A stretch of 64,000 nucleotides of DNA from a virus: positions 17,384-81,383 of the IMG/VR virus record IMGVR_UViG_3300049846_000848; one strand, given 5' to 3'. The notes beneath the pieces are model-generated. The model made no database searches. It saw nothing but the letters and a program-made list of their open reading frames with translations, and was not told where the DNA came from. Within the stretch, counting starts at the first letter, position 1, and each line of letters starts with the position of its first letter. Position numbers and translations under genes: made by a program. Positions 1,988 to 61,360 of the stretch are shown here, one piece after another.

Positions 1988-2003
1988 CGTATAATTACTA
2001 GAG
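1988..2003 (+). promoter_or_regulatory. Putative late promoter, copy A
   Basis: CGTATAATTACTAGAG lies between terL and the portal gene, 22 bases from the -10-like TATAAT to the portal ATG. The same 10-mer recurs at nine other places. No -35 hexamer is visible. The GAGAGG that serves as the portal ribosome binding site partly overlaps the motif. Confidence 0.65.
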
Positions 2004-2016
2004 AGGTTCTATCCCT

Positions 2017-4908
2017 ATGGGTTTATTCGACTTTTTCAAATCTCGCAAGAATATAGAACCTACTATCAAGGACTTAGCTCAAGAGGTAATCGACCAACTA
2101 GAGGTCGACGACGTTAAATCTCTGACTGCTTTTGATCCTATAGTAGGGGGTGCTAATAGCATATCATCTGAAAATATATCACTCACTAAGCAGGACGCTC
2201 AGCGCCTGTACATATCTGATATCTGGATCTACTCAGCCATAAACGCCATAGCATCTACTGTATCCTCTATCCCGTTAGTCACTAAAGTTAAGAAAGTTAC
2301 TCAAGGAAAGGTCAGCTACGAGATTAATACCGAGACTGAATTACAAGCCCTAATATCATACCCTAACCCATACTGCAGCATTACTGAGCTCCTAGCTTTA
2401 ATAGCCATAGATCTAAACTCTACGGGAGAAGCATTCCTATACCTTGATGGTATCGGTCGAGGATCTATGTATAAGATGCCTAAGGCTATCTATAGATTGA
2501 ACCCTGCCATGATAGAGACTGTAGAATCAGACAAGGGACCTTTCGTAGACCATTATAAACTGGTTAGCGAATATGGTGAGGTTAGATATAGCCCTAAAGA
2601 GATATGTCACATTAGATTACCTAATCCATTCTCTAACCTACAAGGGTTATCGCCCCTAGTAGCGGCTTTCCAGAATATCAAGTTAGATAGAATGATAACC
2701 GAGCATGAGGTTAACTTTTATCAAAAAGGGGCTAGACTAGGTGGAGTTCTAACTCATACTAAAGCCCTAACTAAGCAACAACTATCAGCTATCCAGCGAT
2801 CATTCGAGTCTAACTATACCGGGCATAGGAATACCCACCGTACCTTAGTACTTCCGTCAGGGATGGAATATAAAGTAATCTCTGGTAGTTCTAGTGATTC
2901 TCAGACCTTAGAGAAGGCTAAGTACAACCGTGATGCCATAATCTCTGCGTTAAAAGTACCGCCAATTAAGTTAGGTTTTTTAGAGCAAGCATCCTACTCT
3001 AATGCTGAGGTTCAAGAGAAATTCTATTACTCAGATACTATCCTACCTTTGTTGACTTTAATCCAGAACTCATTGAATTTACACGGGTTTATCACTCCAC
3101 CTGACTATTCAATCTTATTAGAATTTGATACCTCCAACATAACTGCTCTACGTGAAGACTACAATATGCTAGCTGAGACAGCTGAGCGTATGATTAAAGC
3201 TGGCTTAACTATAGACGAAGTCAGAGAAATGATCTGGAAAAAGGAAGCCCTCAATCTTCCTACTACCATGGTACCCTATACTGCTGCTGAAATAGCTGCA
3301 CTAGAAGCTAAGCGTAATCCCCAGCCACCTACTCCATCAGAGGACGTACAACACGAAGTAGATATGCAGCCGGAGGAGAAGTCCCTGGCTACTAAAGAAC
3401 TACCCTCAGGCGACATGCCTCACATATCCCAAGATGTAATAGACTCACAGGCTACCTTCCAAGATAGAGTGGCTCAACTAACTTCAGCCTTTATAACTCA
3501 GGGCGTACCTCCAGCGGATGCTGCTAGGGGGGCCGTAGAACAAGCTATGCAAGAGTATGGCTTACCTGGGGCTACTACTCAACCTCAAACAGAACCTACT
3601 CCGGCTCCAGAGAATATAGGTGGAACTACTCCTGCACTAACTAAAGAAGAAGTAAAGAAGCCAGAGACTCCAAAGCAAGAACATTGCCATAAGGTAACTA
3701 TCGGTGAGTTAGTATGTACCACCAGCATGTCTGAGCCAGGCCCAGAGCATACTCATATCTTGTTTTATAAAGACCGCAATATAGAATCAAGCAAGCCTAT
3801 AGCTACCCCAGATGGCCATAAGCATACTTACGACCTACCAGATACAGAGTCAGATGCATCTACACAAGAGCACATGAACAATGAAGGTAAGGACGTAAAG
3901 GTAGAGCGTCAGCCGGGGGAGTCTCTAGATGATTGCGTCTCTAGGGCTATTCCTAAGCTATTAGACGAGGGTTATAGCCGTGACCAAGCTGTAGCTATGG
4001 CTTATTCAATGTGTGAGCTACCAAAGAATCAAGACGAGAGTAAAGATATAACTCCTGAGGTCAGTGATCCCTGGACTAACATAGCTCAATCTAAGAAAGA
4101 AGCTATGCTAACTGTCTACAAGAATTTCCAGGATAAGACCGAGAAACTAGTAACCGAGCGAGAGAAAGAGTTAGGAGAGTTCTTTGCGGGGTATAAAGAG
4201 ATTATAGTTAAAGGCGTTAAGCGAGAAGCTAAGCGCCTAGATAAGGCTTGGAAGACCAAAGCCAACGATGATGATGTTCGTAAAATCTTAAATCTAAAAG
4301 AACTAGATGCCTATGTCGCTGCTTGGATAGCTAAGCATCATCCCTCCCTAGCTGAATCAATTAAACAAGGCTATGACAATACTCTTCCAGGTATTACTAT
4401 AGATTTTACTTTAACTGATCCTATAGTCGAAGCCTTGATGAAAGAGATAGAACTAGATCAAGTTAAATTATACGATGAGACTACCCGCAAGCAACTAGCC
4501 ACTGTACTATCGGAGCAGTTCGCTAATGGTGCTACAATAACTGAAATAGGTAGGGCTATTAGTAGGAAGTTTGATCAAATCTCTGCAGGCAGAGCCCAGA
4601 CCATAGCGCGTACAGAGGTGCTATCCGCCTATAGTGAAGCCGAAGAATTACGTCAAGACGAGATAGAGAAATCATTCCCAGATCAAAAGATTAAGCGTAC
4701 TTGGATCACCATGCTAGATGAATTCGTACGCGATGGGAGCTCTCATCCAGCTAACCACGTAAAATTACATGGAGTGGAGAAACTTAGAGGTAAAGCCTTC
4801 GACGATGGATTGTCAAAACTAGAATATCCCCGCGATCCATCAGGTGCTGCCGGCTCAGTCATTAACTGTCGCTGCACCCTTCTAAAAGAACTCGTAGGTA
4901 AGGAGTAA
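2017..4908 (+). CDS. Portal protein fused to MuF-like head morphogenesis domain
   Basis: Residues about 50-430 match HK97-type portal proteins, which form the dodecameric DNA channel at one capsid vertex. After a Pro-rich linker come a His-rich stretch (EHCHKV, EHTH, GHKHTYD, 555-605) and a module with CVSRAIPKLL and AMAYSMC (640-666) that I recall from other phage head proteins. Residues about 820-957 form a Mu gpF-like domain with ARTE (864-867), spaced His residues (910, 914, 918) and the closing INCRC (949-953). At 963 aa it is far longer than a normal portal of 400-550 aa. The fusion is continuous, with no frameshift. Confidence 0.9.
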   Translation: MGLFDFFKSRKNIEPTIKDLAQEVIDQLEVDDVKSLTAFDPIVGGANSISSENISLTKQDAQRLYISDIWIYSAINAIASTVSSIPLVTKVKKVTQGKVSYEINTETELQALISYPNPYCSITELLALIAIDLNSTGEAFLYLDGIGRGSMYKMPKAIYRLNPAMIETVESDKGPFVDHYKLVSEYGEVRYSPKEICHIRLPNPFSNLQGLSPLVAAFQNIKLDRMITEHEVNFYQKGARLGGVLTHTKALTKQQLSAIQRSFESNYTGHRNTHRTLVLPSGMEYKVISGSSSDSQTLEKAKYNRDAIISALKVPPIKLGFLEQASYSNAEVQEKFYYSDTILPLLTLIQNSLNLHGFITPPDYSILLEFDTSNITALREDYNMLAETAERMIKAGLTIDEVREMIWKKEALNLPTTMVPYTAAEIAALEAKRNPQPPTPSEDVQHEVDMQPEEKSLATKELPSGDMPHISQDVIDSQATFQDRVAQLTSAFITQGVPPADAARGAVEQAMQEYGLPGATTQPQTEPTPAPENIGGTTPALTKEEVKKPETPKQEHCHKVTIGELVCTTSMSEPGPEHTHILFYKDRNIESSKPIATPDGHKHTYDLPDTESDASTQEHMNNEGKDVKVERQPGESLDDCVSRAIPKLLDEGYSRDQAVAMAYSMCELPKNQDESKDITPEVSDPWTNIAQSKKEAMLTVYKNFQDKTEKLVTEREKELGEFFAGYKEIIVKGVKREAKRLDKAWKTKANDDDVRKILNLKELDAYVAAWIAKHHPSLAESIKQGYDNTLPGITIDFTLTDPIVEALMKEIELDQVKLYDETTRKQLATVLSEQFANGATITEIGRAISRKFDQISAGRAQTIARTEVLSAYSEAEELRQDEIEKSFPDQKIKRTWITMLDEFVRDGSSHPANHVKLHGVEKLRGKAFDDGLSKLEYPRDPSGAAGSVINCRCTLLKELVGKE

Positions 4909-4913
4909 CACAA

Positions 4914-6044
4914 ATGCAGAAATTAGAATTTAAATGGGCTATTAAAGCCTTAGACTATGAGAAGAAAGCTGCCGGAGGTTCCGGTAAATTAACTATAGAG
5001 GGATTCGCATCCACCCCAGACCGCGACCGTGTAAAAGATATAGTAATCCCACAAGCCTTCCAAAATTACTTGGCTAAATTTTTAGAAACTGGTACAATGT
5101 TATTAAATCATGACCCTTCAACTCCAGTCGGAAGATGGACTGAGGCGAAGGTAACTGATGCTGGCTTATACGTTAAAGGCTTTATATCGGAGACAGAGAA
5201 AGATCTCCAAACTAAGATCAAGGAAGGTATCTATTCTACATTATCTATTGGTTTTAATACCCTAGAACAAGAATGGAATGCAGCCCTAGAATCTAATGTT
5301 ATCAAGGAGTTAGAGCTTCTTGAGGTATCAGTAGTAACTATTCCAGCTAACCCAGAAGCACGATTTCAAGTAGCTGAAGTACAAGCTGGCAAGAGTTTAG
5401 AAGTAGATGCAGCTAAAGCTTTATCTACCGAAGCAGTACTAGGAGCCTTTATTATTGATGAGTTAGCCGATGGTACTACGTATAATTATAAGTACGTACG
5501 CGGCTTAGTAGCTAAGTCCCTAGCAGTAGATGAGAACGAATTAGACCAAGCGTATGTTGCAGTTATCCTAAACGAAGAAGAGGATGCTATGAATATAAAG
5601 CAATCAATAAAAGAAATTCAAGCACAGCTAGAGACGGAGAAGAAATCCACTACAGTAGAGACTACTGAAGTTAAGGAAACTCCAGTAGCTGAAACTAAGT
5701 CAGCTCCCTCACTAGAGGAATTAGCTGGAATAGTAGCTGGATTAGCTGAACAAATTAAATCTATCGAAGCCTCTATAACTGAGGTTAAATCTCTTGTTAC
5801 TCAAAAATCTGAAGTCGTTGAGGAAGCTAAGGCTGCTAAGCCTAAGCAAGGCGAAGACGGATCTATGTGTGAGGAAGAAGAGGATATGATGGACGAGGAA
5901 AAAAAGCCTTGTGAAGATAAGAAAAAAGAAGAAGTAGCACAAGAGACTAAGTCGCTAGACGAAGAGGAGCAAGCTATCTCTGCGTTAGAGGCAGAATGTC
6001 TAGCTCTTGAAAATGAAATATTAGAAATTGAATTAGGTAAGTAA
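4914..6044 (+). CDS. Prohead protease with scaffold-like C-terminus
   Basis: This HK97-family serine protease would mature the capsid. The N-terminal domain has the expected catalytic positions: His66 in LLNHD, Ser111 in TLSIGF and Glu137 in LLEVSVVTIPANP. From about residue 225 onward the protein is a charged, coiled-coil-like region rich in Glu and Lys, ending in a very acidic stretch (about 315-350). That is typical of a fused scaffolding segment. Residues 165-225 form an extra small domain of unknown role. A good ribosome site (AAGGAG) precedes the ATG. It lies directly between portal and capsid genes. Confidence 0.9.
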   Translation: MQKLEFKWAIKALDYEKKAAGGSGKLTIEGFASTPDRDRVKDIVIPQAFQNYLAKFLETGTMLLNHDPSTPVGRWTEAKVTDAGLYVKGFISETEKDLQTKIKEGIYSTLSIGFNTLEQEWNAALESNVIKELELLEVSVVTIPANPEARFQVAEVQAGKSLEVDAAKALSTEAVLGAFIIDELADGTTYNYKYVRGLVAKSLAVDENELDQAYVAVILNEEEDAMNIKQSIKEIQAQLETEKKSTTVETTEVKETPVAETKSAPSLEELAGIVAGLAEQIKSIEASITEVKSLVTQKSEVVEEAKAAKPKQGEDGSMCEEEEDMMDEEKKPCEDKKKEEVAQETKSLDEEEQAISALEAECLALENEILEIELGK

Positions 6045-6054
6045 TATAGAACTA

Positions 6055-6069
6055 ACCTGGGACCCAGGT
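6055..6069. promoter_or_regulatory. Perfect inverted repeat in the capsid gene leader
   Basis: ACCTGGG-A-CCCAGGT is a 7-bp perfect inverted repeat with a one-base centre, 28 bases before the capsid ATG. It could be a protein-binding site or an RNA processing or stability element. No late-promoter motif lies in this gap, so capsid expression may start from this leader or from upstream. The role is unproven. Confidence 0.35.
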
Positions 6070-6096
6070 AGTATTAACCACCATAGGAGTATATTT

Positions 6097-7471: not shown

Positions 7472-7506
7472 AAGGGGCGGGGCTCATGCCTCGCCCTTTT
7501 TATTTT
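7472..7506 (+). terminator. Strong intrinsic terminator after the capsid gene
   Basis: The stem GGGCGGGGC (7475-7483) pairs with GCCTCGCCC (7488-7496) around a TCAT loop, with one G-U pair. It is followed by a T-rich tail (7497-7506). This should end or attenuate transcription after the capsid gene. The next gene's ribosome site begins just past the T tract. Confidence 0.9.
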
Positions 7507-8581: not shown

Positions 8582-8591
8582 CGTATAATTA
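8582..8591 (+). promoter_or_regulatory. Putative late promoter, copy B
   Basis: CGTATAATTA starts two bases after the previous stop and lies 19 bases (from TATAAT) before the ATG at 8608. The flanking CTAGAG extension seen in other copies is absent. There is no recognisable -35. Confidence 0.55.
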
Positions 8592-11942: not shown

Positions 11943-12471
11943 TAAGATATTCTTTGGTTATTCCAGACCAAAAAAGAAACTTCCTCTGCCTTTATTTAGC
12001 TGGGCTATACGCCTATTCTATGGGTGGATACCCTTCTCTCACGTAATGGTATTCTGGTATTCAGAGACAGCTAAAAGCCCTGTATATTATGAGGCTAGCG
12101 GGCATGAGCTAAAGTTCCTAGGGTTTAGAGCATTCCATCAACGATCGGAGCTAGTGGAAGTATGGTCCAGGGAAGTAACCCCTCTACAGCAGGCTCAATT
12201 AACCGACTACTGTATGCGTAAAGCCGGTACCAAGTATGGTACCTTGCAGATAATTGGGATCATCCTAGCCCGTCTATTAAGACTTAAATATAATCCTATA
12301 GATAGGGGTAGTTCAGCCCAGGTGTGCTCAGAAATAGCGGGGCGTATTATAGAAGATATCTTCAATGAATCCACGCACTTAGACTTAGATCTAGCTGGAC
12401 CCCCGGAATTACGGGAGTTTATGTTTCATTCTCCTAACTTCAAACTAGAGTGGTCGCGTATAATTAAATAG
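11929..12471 (+). CDS. YiiX/NlpC-P60-like permuted papain-fold peptidase
   Basis: A 180-aa protein with the order expected for circularly permuted papain-fold enzymes: His38 in FSHVMVFW, an acidic residue in YYEASGHEL (Glu55) and the nucleophile Cys133 in QVCSEIAGRI, plus the TKYG segment (101-104) seen before the helical insert. These enzymes cut amide bonds in cell-wall peptides or lipids. The next gene encodes a coiled-coil membrane protein, so a lysis or entry role is possible. Substrate is unknown. There is no signal peptide. Confidence 0.7.
   Translation: MNSPNKIFFGYSRPKKKLPLPLFSWAIRLFYGWIPFSHVMVFWYSETAKSPVYYEASGHELKFLGFRAFHQRSELVEVWSREVTPLQQAQLTDYCMRKAGTKYGTLQIIGIILARLLRLKYNPIDRGSSAQVCSEIAGRIIEDIFNESTHLDLDLAGPPELREFMFHSPNFKLEWSRIIK
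12457..12466 (+). promoter_or_regulatory. Putative late promoter, copy C
   Basis: CGTATAATTA overlaps the last codons of the peptidase gene and lies 32 bases (from TATAAT) before the ATG at 12496. It is coding and could be chance, but its distance to the next start matches the other copies. Confidence 0.45.
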
Positions 12472-12495
12472 ATAGGCGTGGGGCAGGATGTTATT

Positions 12496-12814: not shown

Positions 12815-12830
12815 CGTATAATTACTAGAG
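12815..12830 (+). promoter_or_regulatory. Putative late promoter, copy D
   Basis: CGTATAATTACTAGAG is identical over 16 bases to copies A and F. It lies in the short gap before the connector gene, 28 bases from TATAAT to ATG. No -35 is seen. Confidence 0.65.
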
Positions 12831-14577: not shown

Positions 14578-15008
14578 ATCTTATCTATCTCACTAAATAT
14601 ATAATTATTACATTCAGTTAACTTCTGCTCTAGCATGGCTTTGTCGTTGTTCTTACGACATAACCCGCTGGGATGGGGCAGCTCGAAATAATCTATACCC
14701 CACTTATCTAAAGTCTTAACCGCCTCTTTACCTAAAGCCACCACCTTACAATTAGAGATATATTCAGTATTAGTAGAATCTAATCCAGTCTTATAATGCA
14801 CTGTAATAAAATCAACTACTTGTCGTATAGATATTATATGACATTGATTAATCATGTTGATCTGACTGTGATGGACATACATTCGACGACACCAATCCAT
14901 CAAGGTATCGTAGCTTTTAGTCCCCCAAAAAGCTAGGTAAGGGTGGACATTCTTAGGGCTAGGTTTATCTCCTACGAATAGAATCTGAGGGTAGTTAGCT
15001 GGCTTCAT
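14574..15008 (-). CDS. Uracil-DNA glycosylase superfamily protein
   Basis: A 144-aa protein with UDG-fold landmarks: an N-terminal strand and loop ILFVGDKPSPKN (10-20), the strand VVALGKEA (89-96), and the C-terminal loop LPHPSGLCRK (110-119) with the HPSG motif. The family excises uracil or acts on related bases, but it also has non-enzymatic members. I chose the ATG at 15008 because AGGAGG lies just upstream and family members start close to the first strand; a TTG at 15056 is in frame. It is convergent with the tail terminator gene, a moron-like arrangement. Confidence 0.65.
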   Translation of the reverse strand: MKPANYPQILFVGDKPSPKNVHPYLAFWGTKSYDTLMDWCRRMYVHHSQINMINQCHIISIRQVVDFITVHYKTGLDSTNTEYISNCKVVALGKEAVKTLDKWGIDYFELPHPSGLCRKNNDKAMLEQKLTECNNYIFSEIDKI

Positions 15009-18516: not shown

Positions 18517-20568
18517 ATGTCAACCAAGTACGATGTATTCAGTAATAAGTTTTCAGAAGATATCTTTCGTCAAAAGTATTCATTGAATGGTCAGGAGACT
18601 TGGGCTGATATGTGCCGACGAGTAGTATCGGCGGTATGCGGTCAACTGCTATCTCAGAAAGATCAAGATGAAATCTATAAGCTTATGCTGGCTAGGAAGT
18701 TTATTCCAGGCGGGCGGTATCTATATGCCTCTGGTCGAGCTAAGCATCAAGTTAATAATTGTTTCTTGTTTAGAGCTGAAGATTCGAGAGAGGGGTGGGC
18801 TGATTTAATGTCTAAGATTACCTCTAGCCTAATGTTAGGAGGAGGTATAGGCGCTGATTACTCTAAACTTAGATATGAGGGTGCTCCTATTGCAGGTACT
18901 GGTGGAGTATCCACTGGCCCAATAAGCCTTATGAATATGGTAAATGAAGCTGGTAGACATATAATGCAAGGTGGCCAGAGAAGGTCCGCAATCTGGGGGG
19001 GTCTAAACTGGAAACATAATGATATACCTGAATTTCTAGCATTAAAGAATTGGTCGGATGAACTAAAAGCTTTAAAAGAAAAAGACTTTAACTTCCCACT
19101 TCCTATGGAAGGAACTAACATAAGTGTTATTTATGACACTGAGTTCTTTATAGCCATAGAGGATGAGAATCATCCACTGCATTCTAAGGCGAAAGAAGTA
19201 TGGCTAGCCAACTGTAGGCAAGCATTTACTACTGCTGAGCCAGGATTCTCAATGAATTTCTTACGTGATAATGAATCACTTAGGAATGCACCAGTCTCGG
19301 CTAGGACTAGGGTACTAACAGACAAAGGCTATGTAACAGTAGGCTCCATCGTAGGTAAAGAAGTTAGATTGTGGACTGGGGATAGATGGGCTCTAACTAC
19401 GTTCAAACTTACTAAAAAGAACTCTGACCTAGTAGAAGTACACATGTCTAATGCGCTATCAATAGTATGTGACCCCGAACATCCTTTCATCATAAAGCCA
19501 CATAGCGATTGCACTAAGTCTGATTTAAAGAGAATAGCAGCTGGGCAGTTAGTACCAGGAATGCTAATTAGATCCGATGCCCCCGGTAGAAATGAGTTTG
19601 ATCCTGACGTAGAAGTAGTTTCAGTAGAAACTCTTGACTATAAAGAAGATGTTTACTGCTGCGATGTTGGAGTAGAGGAGCATTCCTTCATGGCTGAGGG
19701 CGTAATCATTTCAAACTGCACGGAAGTAGTATCAGAAGATGACTCCGATAAGTGTAACCTAGGTACTGCTTGGATCAATAGATTCAAGACTAAAGAAGAA
19801 TTCAAGAAAGCCATACCATTCATGGTAAAGTTTTTACTATGTGGCGGCATCTACTCAGATGTACCTACCGACAAGATAAAGGAAGTAGGTACCAAGAATA
19901 ATCGTATTGGACTAGGCATAGGCGGTATACATGAGTGGCTTATCACTAGGGGTATGGATTACGAGGTTACTCCAGAGCTACATAAGTGGCTTAAAGTGTA
20001 TGAAGATGAGTCTACTGCTAGCGCCTACATATTTGCTAAGGAACTGGGAGTATCTATCCCTAAAGGAGTTAGAGCTATCGCACCTACTGGCACCATAGGG
20101 ATTATGGCTGAGACTACCACTGGAATCGAACCACTATTCTGCAAGGCATACAAGCGACGCTATTTAGAAGGATCTAGTTGGAAACATCAATACGTAGTAG
20201 ACGGTATGGTTAAGCGCTTATTAGATCAAGGCGTAGCATTATGCGATATTAAAGATAGCTATGATCTTACATTCAAGCAGCGCGTTAAGTTTCAAGCTGA
20301 CGTACAGAGTTACGTAGACATGGCCATATCATCCACATGTAATATGCCAGCATGGGGTTCTGAGACTAATAATGAGAAGACACTTGAATCTAATGCTAAA
20401 ATACTGCTAAAGTATGCTAAGCGACTCCGAGGCTTTACTGTCTATCCTGATGGGTGTCGAGGCGGTCAACCCCTAACTAGAGTATCCTTAGAGGAAGCAT
20501 TAGAGTATGAGGGTACAGTATTTGAAGAGACTGAAAATAAATGCCTTAATGGCGTATGCGGATTATAG
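18517..20568 (+). CDS. nrdJ: Adenosylcobalamin-dependent (class II) ribonucleotide reductase with intein
   Basis: A 683-aa protein, about 541 aa without the intein. It would reduce ribonucleotides to deoxyribonucleotides using B12. Landmarks: FIPGGRYLYASGR (62-74), redox Cys82 in NNCFLF, GGGIGADYSKLR (108-119), the catalytic C-T-E with Cys401 and Glu403, the second redox Cys413 in DKCNLG, the APTGTIGIMAE phosphate loop, and a C-terminal redox pair Cys676/Cys681. The mini-intein (residues 259-400) splits the segment between Asn-Ala258 and Cys401, so splicing is needed to form the active site. It leads a nucleotide-metabolism group with dut and dcd. Confidence 0.9.
   Translation: MSTKYDVFSNKFSEDIFRQKYSLNGQETWADMCRRVVSAVCGQLLSQKDQDEIYKLMLARKFIPGGRYLYASGRAKHQVNNCFLFRAEDSREGWADLMSKITSSLMLGGGIGADYSKLRYEGAPIAGTGGVSTGPISLMNMVNEAGRHIMQGGQRRSAIWGGLNWKHNDIPEFLALKNWSDELKALKEKDFNFPLPMEGTNISVIYDTEFFIAIEDENHPLHSKAKEVWLANCRQAFTTAEPGFSMNFLRDNESLRNAPVSARTRVLTDKGYVTVGSIVGKEVRLWTGDRWALTTFKLTKKNSDLVEVHMSNALSIVCDPEHPFIIKPHSDCTKSDLKRIAAGQLVPGMLIRSDAPGRNEFDPDVEVVSVETLDYKEDVYCCDVGVEEHSFMAEGVIISNCTEVVSEDDSDKCNLGTAWINRFKTKEEFKKAIPFMVKFLLCGGIYSDVPTDKIKEVGTKNNRIGLGIGGIHEWLITRGMDYEVTPELHKWLKVYEDESTASAYIFAKELGVSIPKGVRAIAPTGTIGIMAETTTGIEPLFCKAYKRRYLEGSSWKHQYVVDGMVKRLLDQGVALCDIKDSYDLTFKQRVKFQADVQSYVDMAISSTCNMPAWGSETNNEKTLESNAKILLKYAKRLRGFTVYPDGCRGGQPLTRVSLEEALEYEGTVFEETENKCLNGVCGL
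19291..19716 (+). other. Mini-intein within the ribonucleotide reductase
   Basis: Residues 259-400 (142 aa) interrupt the RNR active-site motif, leaving Asn-Ala before and Cys-Thr-Glu after. Block A-like TRVLTDKGYVTVGSI, block B-like CDPEHPF, block F-like DVYCCDVGVEEHSF and block G-like EGVIISN followed by Cys are visible. There is no homing endonuclease domain. Residue 1 is Pro rather than Cys, Ser or Ala, and a Cys occupies position F:4, as in class 3 inteins. The penultimate residue is Ser, not His. Its splicing mechanism is therefore uncertain. Confidence 0.8.
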
Positions 20569-26569: not shown

Positions 26570-27490
26570 ATGAATTATGGTATTCCTTATATGGGTAGTA
26601 AGTCTAAGATCTTAAAGGATATATGTCCTCTATTCCCTAAGGCTACTCACTTTTATGATCTATTCGGAGGGGGCTTCTCGGTAACTGATTATATGCTTAG
26701 ACATAGAGGTAACGACTTTAAGCACTTTCACTTTAATGAGATTAAGCCCGGAATATGTGAACTAGTGCAGGATGCTATTAAAGGTAAATATAACTATGAT
26801 AACTTTAAGCCTGAATGGATCTCAAAGGAGAAGTTCTTTGCTAGCGGGGATGTCTACGTAAAGACTGTGTGGTCATTTGGGAATGATGGTAGAACCTACA
26901 TGTTTGGAAAGAATATAGAGGAGTATAAACGATCATTGCATCAAGCAGTAGTATTTAATGAGTTCGATCAATTCTCTAAAGATTTCCTAGGTATAGGTAG
27001 ATTCGAGAATTCTATGCCTATTAAGGATAGAAGACTCTTAATTAAGAAACTTACTAAAAATACCACCATGTCACCTAACCCTGCTATACGACTCCAGCAA
27101 CTCCAGCAACTCCAGCAACTCCAGCAACTCGAGCGACTCCAGCAACTCGAGCGACTCCAGCAACTCCAGCAACTCGAGTCAAGGCTATCATTTTATAATC
27201 TTGATTATAGGGAGGTTCCTATAAAAGAGGACAGTATCGTATACTGCGACATTCCCTATAAAGGGACTAAGGACTATAGCGTTAGCAGATTCAACCACTC
27301 AGACTTTATAGAATGGGCTGCTAATAACCCTAACCCAGTGTTTATCTCAGAGTACGAGATTCCAGATACTAGATTTTCCATAGTACATGAGGTGAGGAAG
27401 AGAGTACTTTTAGACTCAGCTCAAGCAAATAAATATAAGATAGAAAGGCTATATGCTAACGAAGCTGCTATGCGTAAGTTAAATAAGTAA
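26570..27490 (+). CDS. D12-class N6-adenine DNA methyltransferase
   Basis: A 306-aa protein with the SAM-binding opening PYMGSKSKI (6-14), DLFGGGFS (30-37) and the catalytic DIPY (227-230), a variant of DPPY. These place it in the Dam/D12 class, which methylates adenine in a short DNA site. Residues 175-204 are an Leu-Gln-Gln repeat coded by ten 9-bp units in the target-recognition region. The recognition site cannot be read from the sequence. RBS GGGAGG. It probably shields phage DNA from host restriction. Confidence 0.85.
   Translation: MNYGIPYMGSKSKILKDICPLFPKATHFYDLFGGGFSVTDYMLRHRGNDFKHFHFNEIKPGICELVQDAIKGKYNYDNFKPEWISKEKFFASGDVYVKTVWSFGNDGRTYMFGKNIEEYKRSLHQAVVFNEFDQFSKDFLGIGRFENSMPIKDRRLLIKKLTKNTTMSPNPAIRLQQLQQLQQLQQLERLQQLERLQQLQQLESRLSFYNLDYREVPIKEDSIVYCDIPYKGTKDYSVSRFNHSDFIEWAANNPNPVFISEYEIPDTRFSIVHEVRKRVLLDSAQANKYKIERLYANEAAMRKLNK
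27092..27181 (+). repeat. Ten 9-bp tandem units in the methyltransferase gene
   Basis: Units are CTCCAGCAA (seven), CTCGAGCGA (two) and CTCGAGTCA (last), giving LQQ, LER and LES. The unit length is a multiple of three, so copy-number change would lengthen or shorten the protein without a frameshift. It lies between the SAM-binding and catalytic motifs. Confidence 0.9.
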
Positions 27491-29606: not shown

Positions 29607-30455
29607 ATGCGATTTAAACTTAGATTAGATTTAAAATTAGAGTTAGTGGGTAGAACTCTCTATAGGATAGAGGCTACTGAGGATCAGAAGTATGCTAAGA
29701 AAGGTGATTTGGGCGGGTATATTGAGAAGGTAGAAAATCTCCAAGATAACGCCTGGGTCTCTGGTAATGCCCAAGTCTATGGTAATGCCCAAGTCTATGG
29801 TGATGCCCAAGTCTATGGTGATGCCCGAGTCTCTGGTGATGCCCAAGTCTATGGTGATGCCCGAGTCTATGGTAATACCCTAGTCTCTGGTAATGCCTGG
29901 GTCTCTGGTAATGCCCGAGTCTATGGTAATACCCTAGTCTATGGTGATGCCCGAGTCTATGGTAATACCCTAGTCTCTGGTAATGCCTGGGTCTCTGGTA
30001 ATGCCCGAGTCTATGGTAATACCCTAGTCTATGGTAATACCCTAGTCTCTGGTAATGCCCAAGTCTATGGTAATGCCCAAGTCTATGGTGATGCCCGAGT
30101 CTATGGTGATGCCCGAGTCTCTGGTGATGCCCGAGTCTCTGGTGATGCCCAAGTCTATGGTGATGCCCAAGTCTATGGTGATGCCCGAGTCTATGGTAAT
30201 ACCCAAGTCTATGGTAATGCTGAAGTCCGTACCAGATTCTCGGTGCAAAATATAATAGGTTTATCGTTTAATATGACACTAACTAACGAAGGAGTCTCAA
30301 TAGGATGCAAGTTCTTTAAGCATCATGAGATTGATCGTGTTACTTATCAAGACTTAAAGACAGAAGTATTAGATGAAGAAGAGTTTAATCTCTTAAAGAA
30401 TATATACTTGATTCATTATGAGTATATGCTTAAAATGGAAGACAGTGTTAAATAG
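29607..30455 (+). CDS. Hexapeptide-repeat beta-helix-like protein
   Basis: A 282-aa protein. After an N-terminal 45 aa with YRIEATEDQKYAKKGDLGGY, residues 48-204 consist of a six-residue repeat of the form A-x-V-x-G-N/D, 26 copies, then an AEV-type end. About 18 residues per turn would give roughly nine turns of a left-handed beta helix. The last 75 aa form a separate domain ending in a helix. I have seen this type in gut and other phages, without a known function. RBS GAGGAGG. Confidence 0.7.
   Translation: MRFKLRLDLKLELVGRTLYRIEATEDQKYAKKGDLGGYIEKVENLQDNAWVSGNAQVYGNAQVYGDAQVYGDARVSGDAQVYGDARVYGNTLVSGNAWVSGNARVYGNTLVYGDARVYGNTLVSGNAWVSGNARVYGNTLVYGNTLVSGNAQVYGNAQVYGDARVYGDARVSGDARVSGDAQVYGDAQVYGDARVYGNTQVYGNAEVRTRFSVQNIIGLSFNMTLTNEGVSIGCKFFKHHEIDRVTYQDLKTEVLDEEEFNLLKNIYLIHYEYMLKMEDSVK
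29751..30218 (+). repeat. 26 tandem 18-bp units
   Basis: The consensus unit is GCCCRAGTCTMTGGTRAT, 26 copies. The block 29851-29940 is identical to 29941-30030, an exact 90-bp (five-unit) duplication, so the array has grown recently by unequal recombination or slippage. Every unit stays in frame. Confidence 0.92.
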
Positions 30456-38416: not shown

Positions 38417-38432
38417 CGTATAATTACTAAGA
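38417..38432 (+). promoter_or_regulatory. Putative late promoter, copy E
   Basis: CGTATAATTACTAAGA lies before the tail tube gene, 58 bases from TATAAT to ATG, the longest leader of all copies. The leader contains two hairpin-forming stretches. No -35 is seen. Confidence 0.6.
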
Positions 38433-39934: not shown

Positions 39935-39950
39935 CGTATAATTACTAGAG
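39935..39950 (+). promoter_or_regulatory. Putative late promoter, copy F
   Basis: CGTATAATTACTAGAG, identical over 16 bases to copies A and D, 36 bases (from TATAAT) before the ATG at 39978. It restarts transcription after the two terminators. Confidence 0.65.
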
Positions 39951-45776: not shown

Positions 45777-45792
45777 CGTATAATTATTATAT
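45777..45792 (+). promoter_or_regulatory. Putative late promoter, copy G
   Basis: CGTATAATTATTATAT lies between the tail-tip gene and the 696-aa protein gene, 24 bases from TATAAT to ATG. The ten-base core is unchanged. Confidence 0.6.
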
Positions 45793-49772: not shown

Positions 49773-49782
49773 CGTATAATTA
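49773..49782 (+). promoter_or_regulatory. Putative late promoter, copy H
   Basis: CGTATAATTA begins two bases after the fibre stop, 51 bases (from TATAAT) before the ATG at 49831. It is followed directly by an RNA hairpin in the leader. Confidence 0.6.
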
Positions 49783-50529: not shown

Positions 50530-53500
50530 ATGCCTATTTTACGTAAATTAAACTCTAAAGCCGTCATCGTAGCTCCTAGTGATTCGGAATCATCGTCATC
50601 GGCTCACGTTATTAGATATAACGGGTCAGATATGACTCAGCGCCTCCGCCTTAACTTTAGCGGTCCAGGTGTAATAGTTAGCGATGATGCTGGTAATAAT
50701 GAAACAGACGTAGTTATCACAGGTGGGGGCGGGGGTAGCGGAGGTACTTTAACTGGATGCGTCTTAGGCGAGACTATGGCGGCTAACGTAGCCGTATATC
50801 CTAAGCTTAAGAAGAAGATCGTAATTGATGCAAGTAATAATAAGCTATCATTCGCTGAAGGATCAGGGAGTTACACCACGGTGACTATCACTAATGGAAC
50901 TTATTATTACCCATACACTAGCTTGGCTGCTGATATTAAGACTCAACTAGAGGCTATAGGCGCGCTAGACTATACAATCATATCGGATCAGCAGAAATGG
51001 AAGATATCAGCTACTGGTAACTTTAAGATTGACAAGACGGTAGCTAACTCTATTACTACTACTCTTGGATTCGTATCAGTAGTAACTACAACTGGATCTA
51101 CCTATTATAGAGCTGATTCTATTCATCTATACACTCATGCGGTGGTGTTGTTACGCACTAATACTACCAGCGACGGAGCTCCCCCTTATATAGACGATGG
51201 ATTATTCACTACCTTAGTAGGTGCTACCCATAGAAGCCGCAGCTTTAGCGGATTCATTATAGCTGGCGGTAACGCCGGGGATGCTAGAGATCTATATTTC
51301 TCGGCGTCTATGAGCGGTTTTAGTGGTCTAGTTACTGGAAGTCATTATTATACTAATGGTACCGCCGGTCAAATCAGCACCAGTACCGTAGCCAATTCTT
51401 TGTCGGCAGGCTATGCTCTTAATTCAAGCACCTTAGTTATAGATCCAGGGCCTAAAGACTTTGAATTCCAAATCGAACCAGATACTGACGTATTACCTAA
51501 TACCGTAGATGACTTACCAGCTTGGTTAGCCGAGCCGGAGATAGTAAGTGCTAGTAATGCCGATGCCGCATATCATGGGTTCTGTGCCGAGGGCGACTAT
51601 GTAGTAGTAGCTAAAGCTGACACGGGATCAACATCTGGATTTAAGATATCTTGGTCAGTAGACGGCGGGGAAACTTTTAAAGAATATGGTACCTTTTATG
51701 CCATAGGTGAATCTTGGGGCGCTCCTCCTACTGGGTCTGGATATTGGTACGCTAAGCCTATGGTGTGGTGTGATTCTACTGGTAGGGTGTTTATTGCTTA
51801 TTGCTATTATGATGGACTTTATTACGAAGTAAAAGGCTTATATGGAACTATTGACTCTAATGGAGAGCTAACTCTAGCTGTAACAAATGCAGGGGCTGCT
51901 TCTCCTTATACTGACTCAATTTCGCTAATGAACGGTACGTCCCACATGATGTTAGTCGACATGGCATACCTAAATGGATATTTATACGTAGCATATATCA
52001 CTACTAATAGAGCCGTATCCGTTCTATATTCTTCTGATTATGGTGCTACTTTTTATCAGCCCACTACTAGTGGATTCATTACCATAGGGGGGTCCAATTT
52101 AATTCCATTCATTATGAATGGCGCAGATATGACACCTATTCACTTAGTAGTTACCCCTAGTCCTAGCAATCCTACTATTAATAGAGTAGGGATAGTCTAT
52201 TCTGCTGATAATACTAATGGTGATCCTATCGTTACCGCCGACTATCACCTAGCCTTAGCTTATTACGACTCAAATACTCCTCCCTTAAACCTTACTAGCT
52301 GGTCTGGTATTGATTTAGGCGAGCAGTTCGGGACTGGACATTGGAATATAGCTATAGGTAAATGCTGGGCTAATACCGCTAAAACTAAGGTAGCATTTAA
52401 TGTTATAGCAGGACATGGTTCTGGTATTGCAGCCGGATCTACTGCTGCGGGAAGCATCCCTCGCGGGTTTATTAAGCTAATAGATTTGAGTGTATCTACT
52501 CCTACACAATCTAACTCACGCATCAACTACTATGATGCAGCTGGTACCGTAACTTTAGGTAAGGCTGCCTTTCATGATGGTTATACTTCTGAGAATACCA
52601 ACGGCTATTATCACATAAAACATCCTAACAACATCATGTGGCTAGGCTCTAATGCCTTCGTAACAGCTGTAGGTGATACTTATCAAAACAACTCTAAGGT
52701 AATGCACTATTCTCCAGATGTGGTTAGCCAGAATAACGTATCCTACCCTATCACTAACCCAGCTAGAAGAATTGCGTCTGCTTTAGAGGCTGACCATCTA
52801 AAGGCAGAGTGTCAGTTTGTTCAGACTGCTACTAAGAACTTTGCAATCTTTAAGGCTACAGAGTCTATCGCCAATAACCTAGTAGGCGGTAGAATTCTAG
52901 CCCATGAGCTTACTTTAGATACCTCTACCAAAACAGAACTTATCACTAACGGTACATTTGACTCCACTACTACTGGTTGGACAAACGCATACCCCTCAAC
53001 TGGATCTATTTCTTCCACAAGCGGTAGACTGAGACTTACTCAAAATACTGGTAACGCAGGTGCTTATCAGGATATCACTACCGTACCAGGGAAGACCTAT
53101 ATCTTAAAATTTGATATGGTTGCAGGTACTGCAGCAGCTGATCATCAATTCAGAGTTTATTCTTACCCTGAGACAAATCTAGCCTCAATTGCGGGAGATC
53201 TGGCACAATCACTTAACTTTCCTACCACGACTACTACTTTAGGATTTCAAATAGCATTTGTCGCTAAGTCTACAGTTAGTAGGGTCGCCCTTAATCATGG
53301 CGGCGGCGCTTTAGGTACTTATATGGACTATGATAACGTATCAGTAAAAGAATCAGACGTCCAAGTAGGCGCAGAAGTAAACGGTGTATTCATCCCAGGA
53401 CAAGTTGCCGATATCGCCGCTAAGCCAAACGTAGACGACGAGGATACTGCTCTAAAGATTCAAACCCATGAATCAGCAGACGGCAACGCCCACGTATTGT

Positions 53501-56500
53501 TTAAGAAAGGATATGATCTTAACCTTAACGGTACCTTCTATGAACAACCGGCTTATCAGAACTTTAAGATCCGCACAGAAGAAGTGGCTACGCTTTGGGA
53601 AGATATTCCACACGAGGTGAGGGACTTTGGACACACAGCTTCTGAAGCCCTGTATGACGTTAAGTTTGACCCCACCAATCCTAACTACGGTGTGTCCGTA
53701 AGTTTGCAGAACGGAGCTAGTCAGACCTACGTGTTTAGGCTAACTATAGACGGCGGGCAGACTTGGAAGAAAATCAGTACTCCGGCAGTATATACAGATT
53801 CAGTCTCTATGTCAATGCTTCAGTGGTACTATCGCTATCCAGTTATCTGGATTAATAACTCAAGGGTATTTATATGCTTTGAGACTTCTTCTACGGCTCA
53901 GCTAGGGATGTACGGTACCATTACTAATGGGGAGCTGGCTCTGTCGGTATCAAACTCCGGGGCACCAGGAAACGGAACTAACATTCTAGCAACCGGTACG
54001 GCTTTGTTCTTCCGCCAAATAGTTGAAAACAACGGTAAGCTATACTTTGCAGCGGCTCAATCCGGAGGGGCGACTTTCAGGATTGCAGTCTCTTCTAACT
54101 ACGGGCAGAGCTGGTCTGACGGTGTCACAACCGGGAGCGATAGTACCGTAAAGAACGTAGGAAGTAACTGGTCTGTAGCCACCGACTGGTCTTACTCCCT
54201 ACAAGTTTGTAACAGACCTGGAGCGCCTACAAGTAACCGGGTTATGGTTGTAGCAAGCAACGGAGCTTTAACTCTAGCCCTGCTATATACTGACAACGAC
54301 AACCTGGGATCTAACTGGGCTACTGCAGTCAACGTATCGACCGCAGGCTCCGGGACTATCGGCTTCTCTGCTGTTAAGCTGTCAGACAATAAGCAATACA
54401 TGGCAGTCGGTGTTCTTAAATCAGCCTTCGCCAATAAGACCGACCTAGTAGTGGTAGACGTAAGTTTAGCCACCCCTGCTACTACCACCGGTTCTGGAAC
54501 TGATATCGTAAGTACCTATGGACTGGCGGTCGATACTGTTAACGGATATAGCTCAGCCTTAGGAAGCTTGGGGCTTAACTACGTAAGGCATCAGCATAGC
54601 AAGATCTTATGGACATCTGCCACATCGCTTATGATGATCAACACTCTGGGGGTAGATACTGCCACTCCAAGGTTGATCTTAAGCAAGTGCTCTGATATCA
54701 ACAATATTGCGTCTACCATTACTTATGCCAACATAGTAACCAGCTCTTCTAGTAGCGCGCAAGCTACCGAAGGACAATTGGCTAAGTTAAACGGTCAGAT
54801 CTGGGCTACATTTGTAACAAAGACTACGACCTCAGCCAACTGGCAAACTCAGGGTCGGGCTAGAGCCGTCCTTATCGCAGACCCGACTCCGACCACTAAC
54901 GTAGCTCCTACAGTTCAGTCAACCACCAGTGGGTTGGACGAATCTACTGGATTGTTGGGCGGGCAGCTGCAGGGTCAAGATAGCGCTTGGGCAGATTTGT
55001 CTAATAAACTAAACCATACCGGGGCTGTTATTGGGCTACTACTGCAGCAGTTATCTACTAAGATAGTGTCCACATTCTTTAAAGTAAACGTGGACAGCTA
55101 TCAATCTGTCTTTGTAAACACCCTAGCTGAAAGAGAGATCAATCCGTTAGCTGATGAATTCGCTAAGGTGCCGGTTAAGATCACGTATCACGGTACTGAC
55201 CTAGCTTCCTATGCATACGATAGAGTAGGCGATAAGATAGTAGCAGTTACCCAGCCTATTACTAGCAATAATGGTAACTTGTGGTATTCAAATGATGGCG
55301 GAGCCACATGGTTCGCGCCTACCGGCATAAGTCTTGGGAGAACGAGTAATAATACCGTAGACTTCTTAGGGAAGAGACTTGCAGTTAAAATAAACTCGGA
55401 TGGCACGAAGTTTGTAGTACTCTATATCTTTCAAAGTGGTGGAATCGACTACTCCAGGACTATTTACGGGGAATTTGATTCTAATGGTACAATGAAGAAT
55501 TTAGATACTACTCCCTTGAATCCATTCACAGATGCTAACCTCGTATATGAGGGATTTGATTTAGCTGAAAGAAGTGGAAAACTTTATGCTATAGGAAACA
55601 AATCATCTACTAATAATAGGTTTCTAGTTACTAGCTCAAATTTCGGAGATACTTCCTACGGAACGCCTGTAACAGTTAAGAATGGTGGTTCTACGGTAGC
55701 CATAGTGCAAGAATCTCCGTCCAAACTAGACGTAGTATCAAATGGTTCGGGTGGAGATAGAGCTATCTTCATAGGTAAACAAGTGTCCGGCGGACTGAAG
55801 ATGTGGTATACTAATGATGACGGTGCTAATTGGGCTACTGAGATAGACTTCGGTATAGCTGACTCACAAATGTTCGGGTACGGTAGAGAAGGAAATCAAG
55901 CGGTAGTATTACTTGCAGGAAATGACGGAGCCGCATCTCCAAACCCTATATATGTAGCTTATTGTGCTAATATAACTGCCACTACTCCAAGCTGGACAGT
56001 TCAAGCTATTACTAATATAGCTGGTATTATAGGTATAGGACAGGCTGGACAAGAAGGTCCTAACCTATCTGTAGGTCAAACTGATAAGGCTTATGGTCAT
56101 GTTAGGTGTTTAAATAGGGTTATCTTCACTTCTGCTACTTCGTTTATTTGTGCGTTTGATAGTCTTCATTCAGGTGGCATCGAAGTACCGTATTTAATGA
56201 AGTTTCATGACGTTACTAACTTGGCAAACTATCAGCAACAATTACTTGAGAACGCCTCTTCAGTTCATAAGATAGAGACTCAACTTATTAAGTCTAGCTC
56301 CGGTAGAATGTTCGTAGTTTACAAAGTTACTGATTCAGCTTCATTCGCCAATAACTTAACCTCTGGTCGTCTAGTAGCTAGAGAGATCTATGATCCTACT
56401 CCTACCTCTAACGTACAGTTGGGATTTGATGGGATTCCAGGGGATACTAACTATCAGGATATCGCTTATAAGCCATCAGCTACTACTGGTGGATTTGCAG

Positions 56501-56613
56501 GTCGTATGCAGATCGTAGGTGATACTATCATGTTTGAGAAAGAAGATGGGTCAGGATTTGAGCAGATCTATATCCAATCACTAAGTCCTAAGAATAATGC
56601 TAGATTCCAATAA
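50530..56613 (+). CDS. Giant tail fibre with Asp-box propeller repeats
   Basis: A 2027-aa protein. After a Gly-rich linker (about 75-80), three related modules (about 335-790, 1035-1470 and 1530-1965) each hold BNR/Asp-box-type signatures, such as SVDGGETF, TIDGGQTWKK and SNDGGATWF, plus degenerate ones (SSDYGATF, SSNYGQSW, TNDDGANW). These suggest sialidase-type beta propellers. Between the first two is a jelly-roll-like domain (about 806-945) resembling a carbohydrate-binding module. The likely role is host-surface sugar binding. Catalytic residues of a glycosidase are not evident. Confidence 0.75.
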   Translation: MPILRKLNSKAVIVAPSDSESSSSAHVIRYNGSDMTQRLRLNFSGPGVIVSDDAGNNETDVVITGGGGGSGGTLTGCVLGETMAANVAVYPKLKKKIVIDASNNKLSFAEGSGSYTTVTITNGTYYYPYTSLAADIKTQLEAIGALDYTIISDQQKWKISATGNFKIDKTVANSITTTLGFVSVVTTTGSTYYRADSIHLYTHAVVLLRTNTTSDGAPPYIDDGLFTTLVGATHRSRSFSGFIIAGGNAGDARDLYFSASMSGFSGLVTGSHYYTNGTAGQISTSTVANSLSAGYALNSSTLVIDPGPKDFEFQIEPDTDVLPNTVDDLPAWLAEPEIVSASNADAAYHGFCAEGDYVVVAKADTGSTSGFKISWSVDGGETFKEYGTFYAIGESWGAPPTGSGYWYAKPMVWCDSTGRVFIAYCYYDGLYYEVKGLYGTIDSNGELTLAVTNAGAASPYTDSISLMNGTSHMMLVDMAYLNGYLYVAYITTNRAVSVLYSSDYGATFYQPTTSGFITIGGSNLIPFIMNGADMTPIHLVVTPSPSNPTINRVGIVYSADNTNGDPIVTADYHLALAYYDSNTPPLNLTSWSGIDLGEQFGTGHWNIAIGKCWANTAKTKVAFNVIAGHGSGIAAGSTAAGSIPRGFIKLIDLSVSTPTQSNSRINYYDAAGTVTLGKAAFHDGYTSENTNGYYHIKHPNNIMWLGSNAFVTAVGDTYQNNSKVMHYSPDVVSQNNVSYPITNPARRIASALEADHLKAECQFVQTATKNFAIFKATESIANNLVGGRILAHELTLDTSTKTELITNGTFDSTTTGWTNAYPSTGSISSTSGRLRLTQNTGNAGAYQDITTVPGKTYILKFDMVAGTAAADHQFRVYSYPETNLASIAGDLAQSLNFPTTTTTLGFQIAFVAKSTVSRVALNHGGGALGTYMDYDNVSVKESDVQVGAEVNGVFIPGQVADIAAKPNVDDEDTALKIQTHESADGNAHVLFKKGYDLNLNGTFYEQPAYQNFKIRTEEVATLWEDIPHEVRDFGHTASEALYDVKFDPTNPNYGVSVSLQNGASQTYVFRLTIDGGQTWKKISTPAVYTDSVSMSMLQWYYRYPVIWINNSRVFICFETSSTAQLGMYGTITNGELALSVSNSGAPGNGTNILATGTALFFRQIVENNGKLYFAAAQSGGATFRIAVSSNYGQSWSDGVTTGSDSTVKNVGSNWSVATDWSYSLQVCNRPGAPTSNRVMVVASNGALTLALLYTDNDNLGSNWATAVNVSTAGSGTIGFSAVKLSDNKQYMAVGVLKSAFANKTDLVVVDVSLATPATTTGSGTDIVSTYGLAVDTVNGYSSALGSLGLNYVRHQHSKILWTSATSLMMINTLGVDTATPRLILSKCSDINNIASTITYANIVTSSSSSAQATEGQLAKLNGQIWATFVTKTTTSANWQTQGRARAVLIADPTPTTNVAPTVQSTTSGLDESTGLLGGQLQGQDSAWADLSNKLNHTGAVIGLLLQQLSTKIVSTFFKVNVDSYQSVFVNTLAEREINPLADEFAKVPVKITYHGTDLASYAYDRVGDKIVAVTQPITSNNGNLWYSNDGGATWFAPTGISLGRTSNNTVDFLGKRLAVKINSDGTKFVVLYIFQSGGIDYSRTIYGEFDSNGTMKNLDTTPLNPFTDANLVYEGFDLAERSGKLYAIGNKSSTNNRFLVTSSNFGDTSYGTPVTVKNGGSTVAIVQESPSKLDVVSNGSGGDRAIFIGKQVSGGLKMWYTNDDGANWATEIDFGIADSQMFGYGREGNQAVVLLAGNDGAASPNPIYVAYCANITATTPSWTVQAITNIAGIIGIGQAGQEGPNLSVGQTDKAYGHVRCLNRVIFTSATSFICAFDSLHSGGIEVPYLMKFHDVTNLANYQQQLLENASSVHKIETQLIKSSSGRMFVVYKVTDSASFANNLTSGRLVAREIYDPTPTSNVQLGFDGIPGDTNYQDIAYKPSATTGGFAGRMQIVGDTIMFEKEDGSGFEQIYIQSLSPKNNARFQ

Positions 56614-56622
56614 GGGTAAGTT

Positions 56623-57210
56623 ATGATTAAACAATATTCGATCAACATCAAGATAGAGAAGGAGGTTCATCTTCCTTCTCTCCTTAAATCCTTAGGTCAA
56701 ACCGAGGATAAAACTATCTCAATCTCTGTCCTAAGAGATGGTCAAACTAAGGCTATCAAGTGCTTCTATGCGGAAGAGGCTACGATAGATGCCGTAGTAC
56801 TTACTCAAGAGGAACTAGACCAAGGCTTATCTAAAGAGCTTAAAGCAGCTAGGGCTATCTATGATGCCCACGATCCAGTAGCCCATAAGGCTGCCTTAGA
56901 TGCCATTACCTATACCGAACAAGTCGTAGGGGATGCCATGGACTATGGTATGCAATTAGCTAAAGAGTTTGCAGCAGAGAACGTAAGATTAGGTATATCA
57001 CAAGCTGGAATGACCCGCACTGTACGGCAGAAACTAGCCGACCTCTTCTCGGCTTTACAGACTGGGTCGCTTAAAGATGCCATAGATGTGGCTAAAGAGA
57101 CGCCAGCTCTAGATAAAGACGCTACCTTTATAACTGACGCTAGACTACTATCACTTGTAAACAAACTAGAAGAATATCTAGGGTTACCTAAATCATCTTC
57201 TCTAAGCTAA
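56623..57210 (+). CDS. Fibre-adjacent protein, unknown
   Basis: A 195-aa protein with a beta start (YSINIKIEKEVHLPSLL) and a helical body (LSKELKAARAIYDA; MQLAKEFAAENVRLGI), ending in a helix (VNKLEEYLGL). It lies between the giant fibre and hub genes. Fibre assembly chaperones are common here, but no motif confirms it. Confidence 0.65.
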   Translation: MIKQYSINIKIEKEVHLPSLLKSLGQTEDKTISISVLRDGQTKAIKCFYAEEATIDAVVLTQEELDQGLSKELKAARAIYDAHDPVAHKAALDAITYTEQVVGDAMDYGMQLAKEFAAENVRLGISQAGMTRTVRQKLADLFSALQTGSLKDAIDVAKETPALDKDATFITDARLLSLVNKLEEYLGLPKSSSLS

Positions 57211-57220
57211 GGAATAGCTA

Positions 57221-60529: not shown

Positions 60530-60531
60530 TA

Positions 60532-61329
60532 TTATTTTTCCTTTAATAATTCTCTTACCCATTTATTATAATAACCCTGCGAGACCCATACGCAATTTGA
60601 GGGAGAGAAGGGTAGATTCCTATCTATTCTATCTAAAACTGGAGTTCTACTATTTGTATTGGTAGATTCTGCCCATTCTATAAATAAACCAACATTATTT
60701 AACCATTCATCGCATATAGTCGCACCCCTACCCCCTAATAAGGGGTAACTAGGATTTGAAGGATTATAACATTTTGCTTTTAATCTACTGAAAGAATAAC
60801 AATACTTACTATCAGCACGACCATGGCTTATTTTATAAGGTCTTCTATTCTTGCTCTGCTGAGATAAAGTAGCCCACCTGCAATTAGAAGGACTGTAGTT
60901 ACCGTTGATATCAATTCTGTCTATTGATAAGTCAGGTGAATAATTAGTAGATTCAGCCCATTTTATAAAATTTACTGGACTATATCTCCACTCTTCACAT
61001 ACTGTGATACCCCTACCACCATAATATTTATATCCAATATTATTAGGAGAATAACACCTATTGTTCATAGCTTTCCAAATATTGTATAGTCTTGTATTAG
61101 ATTTACTGTGCTTTTTGCAGGATTCAACGAGAGATGGCCATCTAGCTTTAGCAGATTCAGATCTAAGACATCCACAGGATTTTATATATCCTAGTTTTAT
61201 ACTAGACTTTTCTGCGTAAGTTATATTACCACAGTCACATACGCATTTATAATGTTTCACGTTCCAGCCTCGTGCTGAAATCTTTATCTTATATTCACTA
61301 AAATCGGTCGTAAGTCGTCCGTATTTCAT
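60532..61329 (-). CDS. Free-standing homing endonuclease-like protein
   Basis: A 265-aa protein with a zinc-binding N-terminus (CVCDCGN, KSCGCL) and two copies of a GGRGxTxCxEW region (YYGGRGITVCEEW; LLGGRGATICDEW), each followed by SIDRIDINGNYSPSNCRW or DRIDRNLPFSPSNCVW. This is the pattern of phage HNH-type or AP2-linked homing proteins. The ATG at 61329 begins MKYGRLTTD, the usual start of this family. It is the only minus-strand gene in the tail module and lies between hub and collar genes. Confidence 0.7.
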   Translation of the reverse strand: MKYGRLTTDFSEYKIKISARGWNVKHYKCVCDCGNITYAEKSSIKLGYIKSCGCLRSESAKARWPSLVESCKKHSKSNTRLYNIWKAMNNRCYSPNNIGYKYYGGRGITVCEEWRYSPVNFIKWAESTNYSPDLSIDRIDINGNYSPSNCRWATLSQQSKNRRPYKISHGRADSKYCYSFSRLKAKCYNPSNPSYPLLGGRGATICDEWLNNVGLFIEWAESTNTNSRTPVLDRIDRNLPFSPSNCVWVSQGYYNKWVRELLKEK

Positions 61330-61344
61330 ATAGTTAAGTCTAAT

Positions 61345-61360
61345 CGTATAATTAATATAA
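61345..61360 (+). promoter_or_regulatory. Putative late promoter, copy I
   Basis: CGTATAATTAATATAA lies 25 bases (from TATAAT) before the ATG at 61377 and only 15 bases upstream of the minus-strand endonuclease start. It restores plus-strand transcription past the inserted endonuclease gene. Confidence 0.6.

Follow-up and report, generated by a model that had tools for sequence, protein, structure and literature searches.

The window examined here is a 64-kb stretch of DNA, bases 17384-81383 of the 81,383-base virus record IMGVR_UViG_3300049846_000848, which represents an uncultured tailed phage, a virus of bacteria known from metagenome sequence. Coordinates are those of the window unless preceded by G000:, which marks positions in the whole record. 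We describe a ten-base motif, CGTATAATTA, that recurs just upstream of genes and is very probably a late promoter of this phage, together with a sigma-70-family gene whose product probably reads it.

Nearly all genes of the record lie on the plus strand. Replication genes occupy the left stretch (primase/helicase, DNA polymerase, deoxynucleoside monophosphate kinase, UvsX-like recombinase, SbcD and SbcC). After them come, in order, genes for a transglycosylase-like protein, a ClpP-like protease, the sigma factor, terminase and a fusion of portal and head-morphogenesis domain. The portal fusion is followed by a second protease, the major capsid protein and a head-tail adaptor, and then by an accessory block with ribonucleotide reductase and methyltransferases, with the tail genes beyond it. 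The replication and accessory blocks were designated early and the rest late; this division reflects gene content rather than expression, and its borders were drawn after the motif was known. The eleven sites are as follows (ORF, open reading frame).

1988..1997, plus strand: candidate late promoter box, exact, intergenic; before the portal/head-morphogenesis fusion gene at 2017 (portal match)
5479..5488, plus strand: copy within the gene for the head maturation protease, some 610 bases upstream of the major capsid gene; either an internal promoter or a chance occurrence
8582..8591, plus strand: candidate late promoter box, exact; before ORF 8608, head region
12457..12466, plus strand: candidate late promoter box, exact; before ORF 12478 (GTG), overlapping the end of the preceding ORF
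12815..12824, plus strand: candidate late promoter box, exact; before the head-tail adaptor ORF 12850
38417..38426, plus strand: candidate late promoter box, exact; before the minor tail protein ORF 38482
39935..39944, plus strand: candidate late promoter box, exact; before ORF 39978, with the tape-measure gene at 41464 further downstream
45777..45786, plus strand: candidate late promoter box, exact; before ORF 45808 (696 amino acids, no family match)
49773..49782, plus strand: candidate late promoter box, exact; before ORF 49831 and the 2027-amino-acid ORF 50530
61345..61354, plus strand: candidate late promoter box, exact; before the tail-fibre-like ORF 61377
G000:14584-14593, plus strand: eleventh box, outside the window; the nearest ORF, of 59 amino acids, starts 4 bases past the motif

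The ten window positions, including the one within the protease gene, coincide exactly with those reported in a first-pass annotation made from the sequence, and the eleventh emerged from the search of the full record which that annotation had proposed. Its description of every downstream gene as structural was borne out in part: family matches support it at four of the nine sites (portal, head-tail adaptor, minor tail and tail-fibre-like), while ORFs 39978, 45808 and 49831 gave no PHROG match and ORFs 8608 and 12478 fell outside the search. The transglycosylase gene starts at G000:14955, beyond the 59-amino-acid ORF that follows the eleventh box. The minus-strand HNH endonuclease gene (60532-61365) overlaps the box at 61345 in its longest, TTG-started form; begun at the in-frame ATG at 61329, it leaves the box clear between divergent genes. 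The 2027-amino-acid ORF (50530-56613) of the tail region has no match in Pfam, PHROGs or NCBIfam.

The frequency of CGTATAATTA is far above chance. In 100 dinucleotide shuffles of the window the mean was 0.39 copies on both strands together and the maximum 2, so that none reached the ten observed; the earlier figure of 0.06 copies per strand was too low by a factor of about three, and the excess it pointed to stands. The whole record holds 11 copies, none on the minus strand, as the annotation had found for the window, although with genes nearly all on the plus strand this bias alone is weak evidence. When one mismatch was permitted, the window gave 22 matches against 9.25 expected, which indicates that the excess consists mostly of exact copies. 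Among 500 permuted 10-mers of the motif, the commonest had 5 copies, and none occurred more than once near an ORF start.

Placement is equally strict. Across two stretches covering the record, with ORFs of at least 40 amino acids chosen by length and the 70-base zones before their starts making up 5.2% of the sequence, 10 of 11 exact copies fall within 70 bases before a start, compared with none of 14 one-mismatch copies. The motif shows all-or-none conservation and forms one strict ten-base box before late genes, as in single-box promoters of the T4 late and phiEco32 type, whose boxes span 8-10 bases. The distance from motif end to start codon is 4-55 bases for these ten copies (the 4-base gap belonging to the box at G000:14584) and 11-55 for the nine of them that lie in the window. 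The 19-58 bases from TATAAT to ATG given previously are close to this range, except that the gene after 12457 may start with GTG at 12478. Pieces of CGTATAATTA are also the most frequent upstream 9-mers of the window, found before 9 of 83 ORFs. Among gaps of at least 30 bases before plus-strand genes, the motif is present in 6 of the 11 late ones and in none of the 10 early ones (four small or minus-strand ORFs dropped, and the primase/helicase ORF of the left stretch added by hand). The late block, 53% of the record, contains all 11 copies (binomial P 0.0009, an optimistic value because the borders were set with the motif in view). None lies in the replication and accessory blocks, in agreement with the reported lack of copies between 15 and 38 kb; equal frequency in early genes, which the annotation had named as evidence against a late promoter, was not what we observed.

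The motif contains a perfect -10 hexamer, TATAAT, preceded by G and, further upstream, by C. An extended -10 of the TGn type, with TG one base before TATAAT, is excluded by this C, which occupies the position of the G. As had been noted, no -35 is visible: at the ten sites other than 5479, the best matches to TTGACA reach a mean of 3.1 of 6 bases, while random positions give 2.86 (P 0.21) and the 43 other plus-strand TATAAT hexamers 3.07; a match of 4 of 6 occurs at three sites (G000:14584, 49773 and 61345). No upstream word of five to eight bases is common to the ten sites beyond what random sets give, and no hidden upstream element was detected. With copy 5479 excluded, the flanks outside the ten bases show weak base preferences only. 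Downstream of the box, A+T content is 73% in the first six bases, 50% in the following six and 45% in the eight beyond, compared with 59% for the genome. A longer identical form of 16 bases ending in CTAGAG, previously reported for three copies, was located at 1988, 12815 and 39935. A literature search with the motif string returned papers that, judged by title, are not about phages.

The annotation had proposed a phage-supplied activator or sigma-like factor, and a suitable gene lies just outside the window:

G000:16167-16757: sigma-70-family gene, 196 amino acids, ending roughly 0.6 kb before the first base of the window and located upstream of terminase; TIGR02937

Residues 20-182 of its product, spanning regions 2 and 4, match NCBIfam TIGR02937 (sigma70-ECF) with E 2.4e-11 and 43.6 bits, 0.7 bits over the curated cut-off of 42.9, which places the protein in the ECF-like sigma-70 superfamily. 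Region 2 scores 23.8 bits against the Pfam cut-off of 24 as a protein and 25.9 bits in the genome search, and the first hundred residues alone give E 1.5e-6. Region 4 is weak on its own (Pfam E 0.17, 11.9 bits against a cut-off of 24.1), and the remaining half searched alone gives weak region-4 matches, the best being PRK06930 at E 2.6e-4. With the same TIGR02937 model, phiEco32 gp36 reaches 23.3 bits, below the cut-off, and T4 gp55 gives no match. The model phrog_1740 was discarded as a basis for the assignment: it matches all 14 control genomes, archaea included, so the sigma call rests on TIGR02937. Comparison with PDB chains gave no match at E up to 1.

In an alignment with RpoD, RpoH, RpoE, FliA and the phage 7-11 sigma, the protein retains the helix-turn-helix frame of region 4. 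Its would-be -35-reading helix, TEQEVIDIMSR (TRERIRQIEAK in RpoD), contains three acidic residues and a single basic one, and over the eleven aligned helix residues, with charges counted by hand, it is the only net-negative one among the six proteins (phiEco32 gp36 was aligned and omitted from the count, being reported without region 4). Such an acidic helix may not read DNA and would fit a box that lacks a -35, a suggestion that rests on a single alignment of distant proteins.

Under the model that we favour, the late promoters would have CGTATAATTA as their sole core element, at the -10 position, and the 196-amino-acid, two-domain factor would bind the host core RNA polymerase and direct it to the box, with transcripts starting 6-8 bases past it. 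Early genes would be transcribed by the host sigma. The following host-type promoter matches bear on this last step.

G000:14918-14947: host-type promoter match, TTGACA-18-TATTAT
G000:1463 and 1490: two host-type matches facing apart, TTGACA-17-TATGAT and TTGACT-17-TATACT
15035: host-type match before the accessory block, TTGACA-17-TAAACT

The sigma gene is downstream of both the box at G000:14584 and the match at G000:14918, so a host-driven start followed by a self-driven boost would be possible: the host-type promoter would make the first sigma, and the box would then amplify it. Total host-type matches show no excess over shuffles in any of the three stretches; only the match at 14918 and one before ORF 33956 stand out when their own stretch is shuffled (0 of 60 in either case).

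This arrangement would work like the T4 late and phiEco32 systems, with homology to either sigma supported no further than the superfamily level; the switch is of a known type, of which the present box and sigma would be a new example. In phiEco32, gp36 is described as an experimentally established phage sigma, reported without region 4, that reads one box; its promoters consist of tAATGTAtA alone, and transcripts begin 6-8 bases past it (PMC8948821). The two systems share an ECF-like phage sigma, a single box of 9-10 bases, no -35 and, under the model favoured here, early genes left to the host sigma (PMC4331800, PMC8948821). They differ in the box itself, in the region-4-like end that the present sigma keeps and gp36 is reported to lack, and in that gp36 drives middle genes as well; BLASTP between the two sigmas found no significant similarity. 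T4 late promoters, according to PMC2988020, have an 8-base TATA box at the -10 place, no conserved -35 and 32 of 50 listed sites perfect. Box position, lack of a -35 and strict conservation are therefore shared with T4, whereas gp55, unlike the present sigma, has no NCBIfam match. T4 late transcription also involves the co-activator gp33 and the sliding clamp gp45.

Both systems served as controls. The whole phiEco32 genome, in three stretches, has 5 copies of TAATGTATA, 4 of them near starts, and T4 between 75 and 115 kb has 16 copies of TATAAATA, 10 near starts. The anatomy is the same as in the present phage, but one-mismatch copies also occur near starts in both (4 of 20 and 11 of 108, respectively), in contrast to 0 of 14 here. 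The present phage contains 9 copies of TATAAATA, none near a start.

Phage 7-11 resembles it in having a sigma with region 4 (gp47) that serves late genes, and differs in its two-part late promoter (GTAAtg-16-aCTA; PMC8948821), where we found no second element. For the 7-11 sigma, a host start followed by self-boost has been proposed computationally (PMC4331800), and the 5' end later mapped before the sigma gene is reported to show no sigma-type consensus (PMC8948821). The Thermus phage P23-45, whose terminase stands at 29% identity among the matches listed, also has middle and late promoters independent of a -35, together with a related large terminase. It differs in relying on the host sigma A and on extended -10 promoters, which gp39 favours according to PMC7403470.

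Relatives were sought through several proteins. In viral contigs, sigma, terminase, portal and DNA polymerase retrieved no close relatives. The capsid protein found 5 loci; an alignment of four capsid sequences yielded 121, and the 80 best of these (28-45% identity, their stretches mostly parts of contigs) were retained as capsid relatives. One relative, G005, carries CGTATAATTA once, elsewhere along its 74-kb record. A viral-contig scan for the 16-base form returned 11 single matches, about the number expected by chance on a rough estimate with an assumed collection size, and no second copy in the stretches examined. In relatives' loci of at least 14 kb, no upstream word is as frequent or as confined as CGTATAATTA; the nearest contenders are CTTGACACC, which precedes 5 of 50 ORFs in a Tunturi_4 stretch, and AACTAGGAG, which precedes 4 of 22 in L055. 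L055, a capsid relative, also has TTATAATTA three times (7634, 15624 and 19415), each before an ORF start, perhaps a similar box. A search for sigma region 2 in 50 of 75 new relative records (25, mostly short, were omitted) and 6 others gave nothing above the cut-off and two sub-threshold frames, with a stop. A capsid scan of genome contigs yielded two contigs of metagenome-assembled genomes only, and identified no host.

Several of these results weigh against the proposed pairing of sigma and box. No close relative of the phage was found, and no sigma homologue was retrieved by tblastn in phage and plasmid collections, by the viral-contig scan or by phmmer in 120 other loci; CGTATAATTA is present in 0 of 80 capsid-relative stretches. 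Since the 7-11 sigma, which has region 4, reads a two-part promoter (PMC8948821), a single box is not the simple expectation here, and the motif computed for 7-11 (PMC4331800) differs from the consensus later mapped experimentally (PMC8948821). Host-type scores are also alike in early and late gaps (means of 8.8 for early and 8.64 for late; 2 of the 10 early and 1 of the 11 late gaps score at least 10 of 12), which leaves the early half of the model without statistical support and makes host-sigma transcription of early genes a suggestion.

Reading of the box by the host primary sigma is the rival that we take most seriously, although we consider it unlikely. A perfect TATAAT would then suffice, with no -35, while a phage protein displaced sigma region 4 or activated transcription, and the phage sigma would serve another role. 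The canonical -10 hexamer, the presence of P23-45 among the terminase relatives listed and the gp39 precedent (PMC7403470) favour such a scheme. It fits poorly with the C that replaces the G of TGn and with the conservation of all ten bases, CG and TA included, without one-mismatch copies before genes, as a host sigma would be expected to tolerate variants; moreover, the phage encodes a sigma of its own.

The box could also be the binding site of a MotA-like phage activator beside a hidden promoter, or could act at the RNA level, for instance in processing or as a leader element, which would agree with the location of 10 of 11 copies on the coding strand just before starts and with the 16-base extension of three of them. 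We regard this as improbable, given that the box itself contains a perfect -10 hexamer, that no common upstream element appeared and that no Rfam family reached its gathering score in the window; a translation signal is disfavoured by the variable spacing of 4-55 bases to the start codon. An origin by chance or as a mobile repeat, for which the 16 bases common to three copies might be cited, is scarcely credible in view of the shuffles (0.39 expected), the permuted 10-mers (at most 5 copies) and flanks with weak base preferences only.

The copy at 5479 may be an internal promoter or a chance occurrence, the shuffles giving an expectation of about one fifth of a copy per strand in the window. 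It encodes Thr-Tyr-Asn-Tyr, with Thr as ACG, the rarest Thr codon (6%) in eleven large genes counted; L076, the sole aligned relative whose protease spans the site, has different residues there. The major capsid gene downstream has no box of its own, and the T4 annotation records internal transcription within gene 17. The record has two distinct protease genes, the ClpP-like one beside sigma (L009:15594-16151) and the head maturation protease (4914-6044).

Returning to the phage sigma as reader of the box, a further reading, which we consider less likely than not, makes this sigma an intermediate between that of phiEco32, which lacks region 4 and reads one box, and that of 7-11, which has region 4 and reads two. 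It would keep the region-4 fold, to hold the polymerase flap, but would have lost the basic recognition helix and so would read one strict ten-base box alone, with the protease-internal box acting as the late promoter of the capsid gene.

Other features of the window were recorded alongside. A strong terminator-like hairpin (7472-7499) lies directly 3' of the major capsid gene. In the accessory block, the large subunit of ribonucleotide reductase (18517-20568) has its best phage matches, among those listed and in pieces, in a Tunturiibacter phage (51% identity) and a Roseobacter phage (50%). A nine-base tandem repeat (27091-27175) lies within a D12-class adenine methyltransferase ORF, and the 282-amino-acid, YdcK-like ORF at 29607-30455 consists of about 26 copies of an 18-base unit encoding the hexapeptide V-Y/S-G-N/D-A/T-x, its product probably being a left-handed beta-helix.

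This analysis provides a first early/late map of this genome, by gene content. It also links, on metagenome sequence alone, a phage sigma to the promoter that it probably reads, in a lineage with no close relative among the sequences searched. Should the two function together in vitro, they would offer an orthogonal transcription part ready for use, and one could then test what region 4 does at single-box promoters.

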